Source of the DNA: Chlorobiota bacterium
GTDB taxonomy: Bacteria > Bacteroidota > Ignavibacteria > Ignavibacteriales > Ignavibacteriaceae
Length of the DNA: 15,379 nt
Direction: 5' to 3'
Assembly: GCA_008363265.1 (NCBI GenBank)
Contig: RHKR01000042.1
Location: 1-15,379 of the forward strand
The notes under the pieces were generated by a model. The model had not been told where the DNA came from. It made no database searches and worked only from the letters and a program-made list of their open reading frames with translations. This document shows, piece after piece, positions 2,945-8,353 of this stretch. Position numbers and translations under genes: made by a program. Position 1 is the first letter of the stretch. Each line of letters starts with the position of its first letter.

Positions 2945-4870
2945 ATGACCAAAATGCACAATGAAGCGGAAGATCAGAATCTGACCGTTGAAATTCCCGA
3001 AATAATTCCCGTGCTTCCGTTAAGGGACTTGGTGATATTTCCGTATATGATATCCCCCGTGCTTGTGGGACGCGACCTCTCGATAAACGCCGCCAATTTT
3101 TCCCTGAACAACCACAGGCTGATCTTCCTCTCGGCCCAGAAAAATTCGAACATCGATGAACCGGGGCCGGATGAACTGTACCGAGAAGGTACGATCGCGA
3201 AAATAGTCCAAACGATGAAGCTCCCCAACGGTTTGTTAAAGATCGTGGTGGACGGACTCGTAATGGGTAAAATTAAGAATTTTACGGGAGAAACCGAGTA
3301 CTTTGAAGCACAGATCCAGCTCAGGGAAGTGCAGTCATCGAACGATGCCGAGATAACAGCCCTCATCCGTCAGGCTGAGATAGCATTTAAAGAATATGCT
3401 TCACTGAACAAGAACATCAATGCCGAGACGCTCGTCTCGTTCGAAAATATTTCAGAGCCCGACAGAAAACTCTACTTCGCTGCTGCCAACATCAATCAGG
3501 CGATCGAAGGGAAGATGAAGATAATGCGGAAGTCGAGGCTTAAAGATCAGTATTACGAACTGATCAAACTCCTCCGCGGTGAGATCGAGATACTCAAAGT
3601 TGAGAAAGAGATCGACCACAAAGTTCAGGAGAACATTGCCCGCACTCAGAGGAAATTTATAATCCAGGAACAGATCAAGATACTTCAGGAAGAACTCGGT
3701 GAAGATGACGCCCTTTCTGAAGAGGCAAAACTTCTTGAGGAGATCGAGTCTGCCGGCATGCCCGAAGCAGTTGAAGACAAAGCGATAGAGGAGTACAACA
3801 AGCTTTCAAAAATTCCGCCGATGTCGCCCGAATATACAGTTATCAGAAACTATCTCGACTGGCTCATTGCCGTTCCCTGGAAGAAACAGACCAAGGACAA
3901 ACTTGACATTTCACATGTTCAGAAGATACTCGATGAAGACCACTTCGGCCTTGAGAAGCCAAAGGAGAGGATCATCGAGCATATTGCCGTGCTTAATCTT
4001 GTAAAGAACATGCGTGGGCAGATATTATGTTTGGTTGGCCCTCCGGGAGTGGGTAAAACCTCGCTCGGCCGTTCGATCGCGAGAGCACTTGGCCGTCAGT
4101 TCGTGAGGATAAGTCTTGGCGGAGTGCGAGATGAGGCGGAGATAAGAGGCCACAGAAAAACCTACATCGGTTCAATGCCCGGAAAGATCGTTCAGGCCAT
4201 GAAGCGGGCGGGTACCATCAACCCCGTGATCCTCCTTGATGAAATTGATAAACTCAGTTCCGATTTTCGAGGTGATCCCTCATCAGCGATGCTGGAAGTG
4301 CTTGACCCAGAGCAGAACTTCTCTTTCAACGATCACTACCTCGAAGTTGACTACGACCTCTCGCAGGTGCTTTTCATTACCACCGCGAACGTAAGGTACA
4401 ACATCCCGCTGCCGCTGCAGGACAGGATGGAGATAATCGAACTTTCAAGCTACCTTGAAGTGGATAAGATTGAAATAGCCAAGCGGCATATCATCCCTAA
4501 ACAGGTTAAACTCCACGGACTCAGCAAATCGAGAGTGAAGTTTGAAGATGAGGCCATTCTCGAGATAATCGGCAACTATACCCGGGAGTCGGGGGTAAGA
4601 AGCATGGAACGCGAGATAACCGCTGTGCTTCGGAAAGTCGCAAAGGACGTGGTCAGCCGGATCCAGGCGAAGGAAAAAGGATCGAAAAAACAGGTTGTGG
4701 TCACCCCGCAGCTTGTCGAAAAATACCTCGGCGCGCCAAGGTATAAAAAGCACATTTACGAAAAAGGCGCCCGCATCGGGAGTGTTACCGGTTTGGCATG
4801 GATAAGGTTGATGTCACCGTTATGCACGGCAAGGAGAAGCTCACCCTCACCGGTCAGCTCGGCAATGTGA
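2945..4870 (+). CDS. lon: Lon protease, N-terminal substrate-binding and ATPase part (frame broken near 4799)
   Basis: Lon is a cytosolic ATP-dependent AAA+ serine protease that degrades damaged and regulatory proteins as a hexamer. The N-domain opens with the typical IPVLPLRDLVIFPYM-like stretch (about residues 18-40), followed by a long helical segment. The AAA+ module has Walker A GPPGVGKT at 365-372 and Walker B ILLDEID with D432-E433. Residues up to W619 (VTGLAW) are collinear with Lon. The last 22 residues (from IRLMSP to the stop at 4870) are unlike any Lon and are out of frame. The real continuation is in the next frame, where the protease domain resumes at 4798. ATG 2945 is the first start; ATG 2954 is also possible, and neither has a clear ribosome-binding site. 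Intact Lon here would be about 820 residues, a normal length. The gene is transcribed away from the surface-protein gene. Confidence 0.93.
   Translation: MTKMHNEAEDQNLTVEIPEIIPVLPLRDLVIFPYMISPVLVGRDLSINAANFSLNNHRLIFLSAQKNSNIDEPGPDELYREGTIAKIVQTMKLPNGLLKIVVDGLVMGKIKNFTGETEYFEAQIQLREVQSSNDAEITALIRQAEIAFKEYASLNKNINAETLVSFENISEPDRKLYFAAANINQAIEGKMKIMRKSRLKDQYYELIKLLRGEIEILKVEKEIDHKVQENIARTQRKFIIQEQIKILQEELGEDDALSEEAKLLEEIESAGMPEAVEDKAIEEYNKLSKIPPMSPEYTVIRNYLDWLIAVPWKKQTKDKLDISHVQKILDEDHFGLEKPKERIIEHIAVLNLVKNMRGQILCLVGPPGVGKTSLGRSIARALGRQFVRISLGGVRDEAEIRGHRKTYIGSMPGKIVQAMKRAGTINPVILLDEIDKLSSDFRGDPSSAMLEVLDPEQNFSFNDHYLEVDYDLSQVLFITTANVRYNIPLPLQDRMEIIELSSYLEVDKIEIAKRHIIPKQVKLHGLSKSRVKFEDEAILEIIGNYTRESGVRSMEREITAVLRKVAKDVVSRIQAKEKGSKKQVVVTPQLVEKYLGAPRYKKHIYEKGARIGSVTGLAWIRLMSPLCTARRSSPSPVSSAM
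4795..4806 (+). other. lon: Frame-disrupting lesion in lon (apparent loss of about 22 nt)
   Basis: Lon proteins read GLAW-TxVGGxxL-xIE before the PGKGKL-like segment. Here GLAW (ending 4801) is followed, one frame back, directly by DKVDVTVMHGKEKL. Six residues equivalent to T-x-V-G-G-D are absent and the frame changes by -1. A deletion of 22 nt between two copies of ATGG (one now left at 4798-4801) would explain both the missing residues and the shift. This reconstruction is inferred from family conservation. An assembly or base-calling error cannot be excluded. Confidence 0.75.
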
Positions 4871-5385
4871 TGAAGGAATCAGCCCAGGCGGGTCTTAGTT
4901 ACATCCGTTCCAATGCCCATAAATTCGCGCTTAAACCCGATTTTATGCTGAACAAGGAGATCCACATCCATCTCCCCGAAGGTGCCATCCCGAAAGACGG
5001 TCCATCGGCCGGTATCACCATGATCATGGCGATGCTCTCGGCATTCCTTGAGCTGCCCGCAAGTGACTCTGTCGCGATGACAGGCGAGATAACCCTCAGG
5101 GGTGAAGTGCTGCCGATCGGTGGACTGAACGAGAAACTCCTCGCGGCCAGAAGGAACGGTTACAAAACGGTACTGATTCCTAACGACAACACAGCCGATG
5201 TTGCAGAGATCAGGGATACCATTACCAAAGACCTTACTATCGTCCCTGTTGAAACGGTTGAAGAAGCCCTCGACTGGGTATTCCCCGGTTGGAAGGAAGC
5301 TGTCGCTCTCAGAAAAGCCAAAGCCGATGAAGAACCGGCTGAGCCCAGGAAAAAACGGAGAACACCACTGCAGGACCTGAACTGA
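4798..5385 (+). CDS. lon: Lon protease, C-terminal proteolytic domain (downstream part of the broken gene)
   Basis: This frame holds nearly the whole Lon serine-lysine protease domain. Numbering from ATG 4798, the catalytic serine is S70 in PKDGPSAG (codon 5005-5007) and the catalytic lysine is K113 in GGLNEK (codon 5134-5136). MTGEITLRGEVLPIGG surrounds the dyad as in the family. The last 20 or so residues are a charged tail rich in K, R and E. The ATG overlaps the upstream frame by 73 nt and is probably not a native start: it encodes an internal residue of the ancestral protein, and no ribosome-binding site precedes it. Translation as a separate protease fragment by reinitiation is possible but unsupported. 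Its stop is 1 nt upstream of the next gene, consistent with an operon. Confidence 0.88.
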   Translation: MDKVDVTVMHGKEKLTLTGQLGNVMKESAQAGLSYIRSNAHKFALKPDFMLNKEIHIHLPEGAIPKDGPSAGITMIMAMLSAFLELPASDSVAMTGEITLRGEVLPIGGLNEKLLAARRNGYKTVLIPNDNTADVAEIRDTITKDLTIVPVETVEEALDWVFPGWKEAVALRKAKADEEPAEPRKKRRTPLQDLN

Positions 5386-5895: not shown

Positions 5896-7452
5896 ATGAG
5901 TTTTCAGGTTTCAGCAAGAAAATACAGACCGCAAAGTTTTGAGACAGTGCTCGGACAGGAGCATGTTACCGTCACCCTGAAGAACGCGATAATTCGCGAC
6001 AGGATTGCCCACGCGTACCTTCTTACGGGTCCGAGAGGGGTGGGGAAGACCACGACGGCACGCATTATTGCCAAGTCGATCAATTGTCTCGATCCGCAGG
6101 ATGCTGAACCGTGCAACCAGTGCGTTAACTGCAAAGCGATCACTGCCGGGCAGTCGATCGATTTTATCGAGATAGATGCCGCTTCGAACCGCGGAATTGA
6201 TGAAGTGCGGTCGCTGACCGAGTCGGTGCGCTACTCACCCGTTGACATGAAGTACAAAGTGTACATCATCGACGAGGTTCACATGCTCACCAAGGAGTCG
6301 TTCAACGCCTTCCTGAAAACCCTCGAGGAACCACCAGAGCACACCATTTTTATTTTCGCGACGACCGATGTTCACAAAGTACCGATAACCATCATATCGA
6401 GGTGTCAGCGCTACGATTTCCGCAGGATACCGCTAGATATAATTAAAGCCGGCCTCCGCGAGATCGCCGAAAAAGAGAACATTACTATTGATGATAAAAC
6501 GCTTACGCTGATCGCCAAAAAAGCCGACGGCGGTATGCGCGACGCGGAGAGTTTCTTCGATCAGGCAACTGCTTTTTCCGGTGACAAGATCGAGTACTCA
6601 TCCGTTATTAAAGTTTTTAATTTTATTGATGAGGATATCTACTTTGAAGTGACCGACGGACTTCTGAACAAGGACTTCAGGATGCCGTTCATGGTCTGTG
6701 ACCGCGTTTACAAGAACGGCTGGAGCTTTATCGACTTCTTCAATGGCCTCCTTGAGCATTTCAGGAACATCCTCTCCGTGGCCGCGACAAAGGACACATC
6801 ACTCCTCGAAAGTGCCGCTGTTTATTTCGAGCAGTACAAACAGCTCGCGAAAAGTTTCTCGGAAGGCGACCTTCTCAGAATAATGAACTATCTGAGCCGC
6901 TTGCTATCGGAACTGAGATTCTCTCAGAACCACAAGCTCCGGAGTGAGCTGGCACTCAGTCAGTTAACAGGCTTTGAGACGTCGGAGACGATATCGAATC
7001 TGATCAACATACTCGGCAATACGAATGCCGGTGAGACGATAAAGATCGAAAGAACTGTGGTTCAGGCAACACCTCCCCCTTCGGAAGACGAAAAAAAAAA
7101 GTCTGAACCAAACGTAGAGGCTCCCCCGGAACCTGCTGAACCGGTGACCGCCGCACTACCTCAGCCGGAACCCGTGACAGAACCCGAACCGGAATACCTC
7201 CCACCCACGGTGGAAGAAGAGTTCATCCCCATGGAAGAACCCGAAATATCGATGGAGTTCGAACATTCCCCATTGGATGAGGCACCCCCTTACGAACCCG
7301 AAACACCCCTTCAGCACCACAATCACCTCGCCGGCGAGAAGAAGTTCTTCGCCTCCCTTTCAAAGAAAACCCCACTCCCCGAACCCGAAAAACCCGAAAC
7401 AGACCCCTATGTGAGGTTTATTGTGGATAAACTTGGGGGGAGAGAGATTTAG
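5896..7452 (+). CDS. dnaX: DNA polymerase III subunit tau (gamma by frameshift), clamp loader
   Basis: DnaX is the ATPase of the clamp loader that places the sliding clamp on primed DNA. The AAA+ module spans residues 1 to about 178, with Walker A GPRGVGKT at 45-52, zinc-binding cysteines C64, C73, C76 and C79, Walker B IIDEVHM with D126-E127, and the arginine finger R169 in ISRC. The lid and oligomerisation domain follow to about 370. From about 375 the chain is a proline- and glutamate-rich linker ending in a short conserved-looking tail (YVRFIVDKLGGREI). The tau form is 518 residues. An A10 run at 7091-7100 contains A-AAA-AAG in the correct frame; slippage there would yield a form of about 403 residues (gamma). 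AAGG at 5888-5891 lies four bases upstream of the ATG and supports the start. The stop TAG at 7450-7452 uses the first bases of a repeat element. Confidence 0.96.
   Translation: MSFQVSARKYRPQSFETVLGQEHVTVTLKNAIIRDRIAHAYLLTGPRGVGKTTTARIIAKSINCLDPQDAEPCNQCVNCKAITAGQSIDFIEIDAASNRGIDEVRSLTESVRYSPVDMKYKVYIIDEVHMLTKESFNAFLKTLEEPPEHTIFIFATTDVHKVPITIISRCQRYDFRRIPLDIIKAGLREIAEKENITIDDKTLTLIAKKADGGMRDAESFFDQATAFSGDKIEYSSVIKVFNFIDEDIYFEVTDGLLNKDFRMPFMVCDRVYKNGWSFIDFFNGLLEHFRNILSVAATKDTSLLESAAVYFEQYKQLAKSFSEGDLLRIMNYLSRLLSELRFSQNHKLRSELALSQLTGFETSETISNLINILGNTNAGETIKIERTVVQATPPPSEDEKKKSEPNVEAPPEPAEPVTAALPQPEPVTEPEPEYLPPTVEEEFIPMEEPEISMEFEHSPLDEAPPYEPETPLQHHNHLAGEKKFFASLSKKTPLPEPEKPETDPYVRFIVDKLGGREI
7091..7106 (+). 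promoter_or_regulatory. dnaX: dnaX slippery site with immediate stops in both shifted frames
   Basis: Ten consecutive A residues (7091-7100) followed by GTCTGA. In the tau frame the codons are GAA AAA AAA AAG TCT, so A7095-AAA-AAG is an E. coli-type slippery heptamer in register. A -1 shift, or one extra A in the transcript, reads GTC then TGA at 7104-7106 and ends gamma after residue 403. One missing A reads AGT CTG AAC CAA ACG TAG and also stops. A weak purine-rich GGAAG lies at 7083-7087. No strong stem-loop was recognised downstream. Confidence 0.7.
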
Positions 7453-7601
7453 TGGTTAGAGGTAAGTGGTTAGAGGTTAATGATTTCTATGGGACTTTGT
7501 GCAGATTTTTCGACCTCTAATCCACTGATATCTCACTTCAGTTTTTGCAGCTAACATTCGGCACAGTAAGATTAACCACTAACCTCTAACCACTAACCAC
7601 T
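7451..7601. repeat. 151-bp segment bounded by 31-bp imperfect inverted arrays of a 7-bp repeat (possible bidirectional terminator)
   Basis: The left arm, 7451-7481, reads AGTGGTT, AGAGGTA, AGTGGTT, AGAGGTT, AAT. The right arm, 7601-7571 on the minus strand, reads AGTGGTT, AGTGGTT, AGAGGTT, AGTGGTT, AAT. They match at 27 of 31 positions, with 89 bp between. A further degenerate copy (AGTGGATTAGAGGT on the minus strand) lies around 7512-7526. dnaX ends on TAG at 7450-7452 and mazG on TAG at 7588-7586, both formed by these arms. Transcripts from either side could fold into a long hairpin. A terminator role is plausible but lacks the usual compact GC stem and T run. No clear target-site duplication is visible. 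Confidence 0.65.
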
Positions 7602-8353
7602 CCTTTAGCACGCTCCCACAAAACCAGCATTTCGTTTAGTGAGGCCTCTGTCGGGGTGCGGTTTGTTTTGGCGAGTTCTGATTCTATGAAGGAGAAGCGC
7701 TTTTCGAATTTTTTGTTGGCGAGGTTGAGGGCGTTCTCGGGGTTGATCTTTTTGAAGCGTGCATAGTTGGTGAGGGCGAAGAGGTAGTCACCGAATTCCT
7801 CTTCGAGGCGGGTGAGGTCGCCGGAGGCTTCTGCTTCTTCAAGTTCGGCGCGTTCTTCAACCATTTTGTTTTTTACATCTTCCATTGATTGCCACTCGAA
7901 GCCCGTTTTCGCGGCTTTCTCCTGCATTCTTGCAGCACGGTGCAGCGCGGGCATCGCGACGGGGATCCCTGACAGCACCGATTTCTTCCCTTCGGCGAGC
8001 TTTATCGCTTCCCAGTTTTTCATCACTTCGCCTGTATCCGCCACTTCGGTGTCACCGAAAACATGGGGGTGGCGGCGAATGAGCTTTTCGGAAATACCCT
8101 GAATTACATCATCCAGAGTGAAATGGCCATCCTCTTCAGCTATGACAGAATGGAAGGCAACATGCAGCAGAAGATCGCCCAGTTCCTCCTTGAGGTGAGC
8201 GAAATTTTTGCTGTTGATCGCGTCGAGCGTCTCGTAGGCTTCCTCGATGGTAGCCATCTTTATTGAGTCGTTGGTCTGCTCGCGATCCCAGGGGCATTCC
8301 TTCCGCAACCGCCTCATTATATCAATAAATTCCTTAAATTTAAACTCTGTCAT
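7586..8353 (-). CDS. mazG: Nucleoside triphosphate pyrophosphohydrolase MazG
   Basis: MazG hydrolyses nucleoside triphosphates to monophosphate and pyrophosphate, clearing unwanted nucleotides in the cytosol. The 255-residue protein has the usual two tandem MazG domains. The first contains LRKECPWDREQT at about 16-27 and the metal-binding glutamates and aspartate in EEAYE (37-41) and EELGD (56-60), followed by RRHPHVFG. The second contains VEERAELEEAE, EEEFGD and an ALNLANKKFEKRF segment. Length and motif order are normal. ATG 8353 is the only start that keeps the N-terminal helix. The last five residues (GVVSG) and the stop are encoded by the heptamer repeat arm at 7601-7586, so the native C-terminus has probably been replaced or extended by it. 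It converges on dnaX and diverges from the Rid-family gene across a 68-bp gap. Confidence 0.95.
   Translation of the reverse strand: MTEFKFKEFIDIMRRLRKECPWDREQTNDSIKMATIEEAYETLDAINSKNFAHLKEELGDLLLHVAFHSVIAEEDGHFTLDDVIQGISEKLIRRHPHVFGDTEVADTGEVMKNWEAIKLAEGKKSVLSGIPVAMPALHRAARMQEKAAKTGFEWQSMEDVKNKMVEERAELEEAEASGDLTRLEEEFGDYLFALTNYARFKKINPENALNLANKKFEKRFSFIESELAKTNRTPTEASLNEMLVLWERAKGVVSG

Follow-up and report, generated by a model that had tools for sequence, protein, structure and literature searches.

The dnaX gene of this Chlorobiota bacterium carries an uninterrupted run of ten A residues. The locus thus raises the question of whether the run allows one gene to make two proteins and, if so, whether the change of frame would arise in the RNA polymerase or in the ribosome.

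The A10 run and the predicted products of dnaX

In the window, that is the whole stretch of 15,379 nucleotides that was analysed, dnaX occupies 5896..7452 of the forward strand as an open reading frame of 518 codons from the ATG at 5896, and its zero-frame product is the 518-amino-acid tau protein. The protein matched the Pfam families DNA_pol3_delta2, DNAX_ATPase_lid and DNA_pol3_gamma3 as well as the NCBIfam families TIGR02397 (dnaX_nterm) and NF004046, the latter two above cut-off, and its PDB match was E. coli gamma/tau 1-361. An AlphaFold2 model from a 17-row alignment (mean pLDDT 68.7) predicted the domains mostly well up to about residue 374, with a final helix at 366-374 ahead of the disordered part; the end of Pfam domain III lies at residue 358. 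Domains I-III (residues 1-374; 5896..7017, forward strand) are common to tau and to the shifted products described below. The tau-only tail (7101..7449, forward strand) is mostly predicted to be disordered, with pLDDT below 50 at residues 380-501, and ends in a short C-terminal helix at 504-513. This helix belongs to a conserved tau C-terminal motif, DPYVRFIVDKLGGREI (7402..7449, forward strand), and an [LF]GG-type motif was found within the final 14 amino acids of 51 of the 54 order-level tau products. A tail domain of about 90 amino acids, which is present in the other 13 aligned sequences, is absent in the four members of the genus (the window and loci L002-L004). Its loss left the C-terminal motif DPYVxxIxxxLGGREI in place, and this motif is a candidate binding peptide of tau.

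The A10 run (7091..7100, forward strand) is bounded by a G at 7090 and a G at 7101. It is read in register with the ATG at 5896 as GAA AAA AAA AAG, from the GAA at 7090 to the AAG at 7099, followed by TCT GAA, and it encodes residues 399-402. Since the domains of the model end at about residue 374 and disorder spans 380-501, the run sits in the linker. One extra A in the RNA would bring the ribosome to a TGA (7104..7106, forward strand), which also closes the frame of a -1 ribosomal shift, and the predicted gamma-like product has 403 amino acids and ends in EKKKV. One A fewer would lead to a TAG (7115..7117, forward strand), which lies in the frame of RNA with two extra A's as well, and the predicted product has 406 amino acids and ends in EKKSLNQT. 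Both stops were read from the sequence. An earlier note on this DNA had described the ten A's, the stops in both shifted frames, the immediate GTC TGA of the -1 frame and expected products of 518 and about 403 residues, and this reading of the sequence was confirmed.

When both strands were searched, the run in dnaX was the sole A run of at least nine in the window. However, as many or more such matches occurred in 19 of 200 dinucleotide shuffles, which makes the run weak evidence by itself. Because A10 is not very rare under shuffling, the case rests on comparison with relatives. In the organism's own genome the 30 loci examined, out of 52 matches, held 22 distinct sites of nine or more A's, and among these the dnaX run alone lies on the sense strand within an open reading frame of more than 150 amino acids; four others fall within reading frames of 104-134 amino acids. 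Homopolymer errors are common in some sequencing methods, and the window comes from a 627-contig assembly, both of which would suit a run created by assembly or sequencing. Against such an artefact, the reading frame continues unbroken before and after the run, and two further genomes of the genus have A10 in the same phase; we regard an artefact as extremely improbable.

Two features elsewhere in the window were also recorded. The lon gene is split between overlapping reading frames at 2945-4870 and 4798-5385 on the forward strand, which are in different frames and encode 641 and 195 amino acids; this is either a real break or an assembly error, and no homopolymer of six or more was found at the junction. 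Between dnaX and the next gene, at 7449-7603, lies an inverted repeat that begins right at the tau stop. Its arms of 24-31 nucleotides are about 90-100 nucleotides apart and consist of tandem 14-mers, AGTGGTTAGAGGTT. Across the genome, 19 copies of the 14-mer GTGGTTAGAGGTTA are present compared to 0 of a reversed control, so that the repeat resembles a small palindromic element of the dispersed kind.

Length, codon phase and flanking stops of the run among relatives

dnaX genes were collected at three taxonomic depths. At the order level, 56 loci were fetched, of which 55 were usable (L056 is truncated) and 54 closed (L006 is open at its 3' end); two order-level genomes reported to be about 99% complete, G039 and G045, gave no dnaX match except weak delta-prime-like hits. 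The class level contributed 107 loci out of 124 hits. The phylum level contributed 38, of which 37 were chosen by hand in a way that favoured short open frames, plus one; because of this bias, 20 further phylum-level genes were added by taking about every fourth remaining row, two of them chosen freely. The linker zone was scored as the 75 codons after domain III.

Of the 220 dnaX genes, 130 have nine or more consecutive A's in the linker zone, namely 32/55 at the order level, 52/107 at the class level, 30/38 at the phylum level and 16/20 of the further genes. In the first 200 usable genes the density of such runs was 2.78 per kb inside the zone and 0.014 per kb outside it, where there were four runs. 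In principle the lysine segment could be kept for the sake of the protein, with the A run following from lysine codon use and no switch involved. Lysines are frequent in the linker, which is polar, and the run is commoner in AT-rich genes. However, when codons were drawn from the gene itself with the protein kept fixed, 29.0 of the 169 tau-in-frame genes were expected to have the run, compared to 83 observed. Moreover, run presence drops only from 17/25 in the lowest GC3 bin to 8/25 in the highest, and composition was rejected as its sole cause. The lengths, the stops and the avoidance of long A runs in other reading frames, all described below, likewise speak against an origin in lysine codon use, which we consider very unlikely.

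The lengths of the runs skip one value. Among 199 closed genes, the longest run in the zone measured 9-11 A's in 113 and at most seven in 86, while exactly eight occurred in none, compared to about 20 expected when each gene's own codons were resampled (6.4, 10.2 and 3.4 in the three groups). The further 20 genes comprised 16 with nine or ten A's, four with at most six and none with eight, so that the overall count for eight is 0/219. In all, 124 of the 129 closed genes with a run have A9-A10, and five have A11. For the genome-wide A-run counts, in which the null drew codons from sampled reading frames, A7 and A8 were near expectation in the reading frames of G028 (77 vs 83 and 23 vs 27) and of G003 (43 vs 51 and 9 vs 14), whereas runs of nine or more were rare (3 vs about 16 and 1 vs about 8). 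Thus, A9+ is avoided elsewhere in the coding sequence of these two sampled relatives, and nine is the length at which avoidance begins. A passage of PMC1088944 reports the like in a large proportion of bacterial genomes. The threshold of nine is not absolute, as the section of Antonov 2013 (PMC3711429) on two-ORF dnaX genes gives 9 A's for Chloroherpeton thalassium and 8 and 7 for two Chlorobium species. By these comparisons, the A run in the dnaX linker is a selected element.

Runs of at least nine A's are conserved in all codon phases. Phases 0, 1 and 2 were represented by 5, 18 and 9 genes at the order level and by 16, 7 and 29 at the class level, and on a dnaX tree made with FastTree alone the phase changed at least 31 times among 113 run genes. 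Shuffled labels gave a mean of 48.0 changes, and the lower observed number shows that phase is still partly inherited.

Furthermore, early stops lie in both of the other frames. In the 31 tau-in-frame genes of the order level, the stop reached by one extra A lay at a median of 2 codons compared to 4-5 in two nulls, and the stop reached by one A fewer at 5 codons compared to 9-11 (p about 2e-4 for each frame). For the 41 genes of the class level, where the nulls gave 5-12 and 12-13 codons, the corresponding values were p ≤1.5e-7 and p ≤5.9e-6. These nulls draw codons from the gene itself and take genes as independent; in a thinned test, which kept 70 of 89 genes as distant relatives, p was 2e-14 and 1e-9. 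In 24 gamma-in-frame genes the third frame also stops early (p 1.4e-5); for a -1 ribosomal shift, that frame could stay open.

Probable polymerase slippage and the ribosomal alternatives

Early stops guarding both frames are the main reason for preferring slippage by the RNA polymerase. It is highly probable, in our view, that the A10 run of dnaX makes RNA polymerase slip, so that the mRNAs form a mixed pool from which both tau and gamma-like products would be made. Those mRNAs with 10 (or 10+3n) A's would encode tau, whereas the others would end within a few codons at the stops in both frames, giving products of 403 or about 406 amino acids that would retain the ATPase and oligomerisation domains and lack the tau tail. 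The gamma-making switch proposed in the earlier note thereby gains support from the lengths of 9-11 A's, the use of all phases, the early stops and the avoidance of A9+ elsewhere. From this anatomy we infer slippage by this organism's own RNA polymerase, and with it a gamma:tau ratio and a presumed role of gamma in the clamp loader.

If the ribosome shifted by -1 in a programmed manner, as on E. coli dnaX, it would do so at A_AAA_AAG with the TGA one codon on, the long run being incidental or a help to slippage. The window holds the in-register A_AAA_AAG followed by GTC TGA and in this resembles E. coli dnaX, which in the parts of PMC5009743 and PMC3711429 that describe it has the same heptamer, a -1 stop after one codon and a comparable position in the protein. 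In contrast to E. coli dnaX, no Shine-Dalgarno or significant stem stimulator was found in the window, its run is longer, stops are present in both frames and there is a second tRNA-Lys (CUU). The 19 bases that precede the run in the window contain no Shine-Dalgarno match of four bases, and at the order level weak upstream Shine-Dalgarno-like matches occurred in 10/32 genes against a background of 22%, with strong ones in 1/32 against 7%. Downstream of the run, folding at the order level was marginally above shuffles (mean z -0.46, p 0.046, 5/32 below -2), which favours the ribosomal route, but the window itself folds no more strongly than shuffles (z -0.31, -0.79 and -0.44). A stem of about ten pairs does close over the run in the window (7059-7109); it was taken as chance, since z is -0.79 for the 121 bases concerned and neither L002 nor L003 forms this fold.

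Two further observations on the codons and lengths of the run do not fit a ribosomal shift. Of the 83 tau-in-frame run genes, just 19 have AAG as the final codon that overlaps the run. Thus, while the earlier description of the site as an E. coli heptamer combined with a run of Thermus length is literally true, the heptamer looks incidental. Moreover, A7-A8 would suffice for the ribosome, yet A8 is never the longest run among the 219 genes, and early stops are present also in the frame that a -1 shift does not use. Finally, tRNA-Lys(CUU) and tRNA-Lys(UUU) are present together in 4/4 genomes of the genus, so that tRNA-Lys(UUU) is not the sole species; PMC5009743 (section 21) suggests that having both tRNAs may explain the reliance of Thermus on polymerase slippage.

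The direction of the shift speaks against polymerase slippage. Gamma-in-frame genes reach the tail by one extra A, equivalent to a -1 shift, in 23/24 and 7/7 cases, the one exception among the 24 reaching it by two extra A's, and of the two stops in tau-in-frame genes, the nearer is that reached by one extra A, again the direction of a -1 ribosomal shift. By the rule given in a passage of Antonov 2013 (PMC3711429), clusters that shift in one direction lean to ribosomal shifting. However, this bias is not decisive, because one-base insertions may be the commonest product of slippage. Weighing these points, we judge a programmed -1 ribosomal shift unlikely. The lean towards transcriptional slippage in the earlier note thus appears justified by the lack of a Shine-Dalgarno excess, the presence of tRNA-Lys(CUU) and the use of all phases.

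Alternatively, ribosomes might slide along the lysine codons of a poly(A) stretch, with no programmed signal involved. Such sliding is independent of phase and may exit in either frame, as can be deduced from the relevant part of PMC4363877, and would explain both stops too; the run of the window shares with the sliding substrates of that study that it encodes lysines. On the other hand, the same part of PMC4363877 reports for the E. coli system that the truncated product is robust at A11 and that there is little at A9 or A10, whereas nearly all closed run genes here have A9-A10 and just five have A11, a comparison made with E. coli ribosomes. Sliding of this kind is therefore highly improbable as the source of the switch.

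Slippage by the polymerase, in turn, has close counterparts. The transcriptional slippage of Thermus thermophilus dnaX (Larsen 2000), as described in parts of PMC1088944 and in section 21 of PMC5009743, resembles the window in four respects: at least nine A's stand without interruption past the domains common to both products, the unshifted frame encodes tau, each of the two other frames is closed by a stop close by, and two tRNA-Lys species are present. The Thermus run is A9 rather than A10, and the tau tail of the window is mostly disordered and lacks the globular domain of other family members. In the Thermus type, mRNAs with non-templated A's occur and two products are made in about equal amounts, whereas for the window both slippage and a tau:gamma ratio are predictions. 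The two-ORF dnaX genes of Antonov 2013, in the portion of that paper concerned with them, likewise have an A run at the gamma/tau junction with transcriptional realignment predicted; unlike in the window, where the zero frame encodes tau, their zero frame encodes gamma and the shift leads to tau. Thermus dnaX and these two-ORF genes are of the same kind as dnaX of the window.

Loss of the run and change of frame among the relatives

Within the genus, the window (L001), L002 and L003 have retained GAA-A10 and a stop in each shifted frame amid a linker that otherwise drifts. The fourth member, L004 (G001:C10; WBUK01000017.1), has a linker rich in glycine, serine and alanine with no A run of five or more in codons 355-440, and appears from this to be a natural loss of the switch. 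In all, a run of at least nine is absent from 23 of the 54 closed order-level genes, L004 being the one in the same genus. Conservation of the run, which the earlier note had offered as a check, therefore holds for two of the three other members of the genus, with both stops, and fails for L004 and the rest of these 23 order-level genes. Some relatives, it follows, can do without gamma from this source. The idea that a ribosomal heptamer has taken the place of the run was considered and rejected, as an in-register A_AAA_AAR is present in only 2 of the 23 run-less genes (L051 and L054). Another run-less order-level gene, L021, has an in-register TTTTTTA. At L144 (G071), which has no A run, a run of eight G's stands at codon 391 in the same linker.

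The relatives include both architectures, tau in frame as in the window and gamma in frame as in L181, L193 and L198. On the dnaX tree the architecture changed at least nine times among the 113 run genes, in a sample whose phylum-level part is biased towards gamma-in-frame genes. One contrasting pair is L197, with A10 and tau in frame, and L198, with A9 and gamma in frame: their DNA is 90% identical, they lie 0.011 apart on the tree, and the one frame-changing indel before the end of tau is located in the run. This difference may be a homopolymer assembly error.

We see about even chances that dnaX slippage is old, phylum-wide and indifferent to frame. If so, a run of 9-11 A's would be selected while the linker around it turns over and the phase shifts, and indels in the run would flip the zero-frame product. 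Both forms would work because the RNA pool carries all frames, and an essential gene would therefore tolerate a frameshift mutation at this site. In a search confined to the open-licence literature, no report of dnaX slippage in Ignavibacteria came up; Antonov 2013 names further species in its supplements. What may be new is the breadth of the phenomenon, its neutrality to phase and the interconversion of tau-in-frame and gamma-in-frame genes by a single base.

The importance of gamma to the replisome has long been disputed (PMC5009743, section 21). That divergent relatives have kept nine or more A's, with stops guarding both wrong frames, indicates on comparative grounds that producing gamma pays in much of the phylum, and the run-less lineages, such as L004 in the same genus, provide a natural contrast. 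Slippage that gives a shortened product is called difficult to judge by comparative analysis in a passage of PMC1088944; the signature described here, at least nine A's in any phase and a stop in each of the other frames, can be used to look for it.
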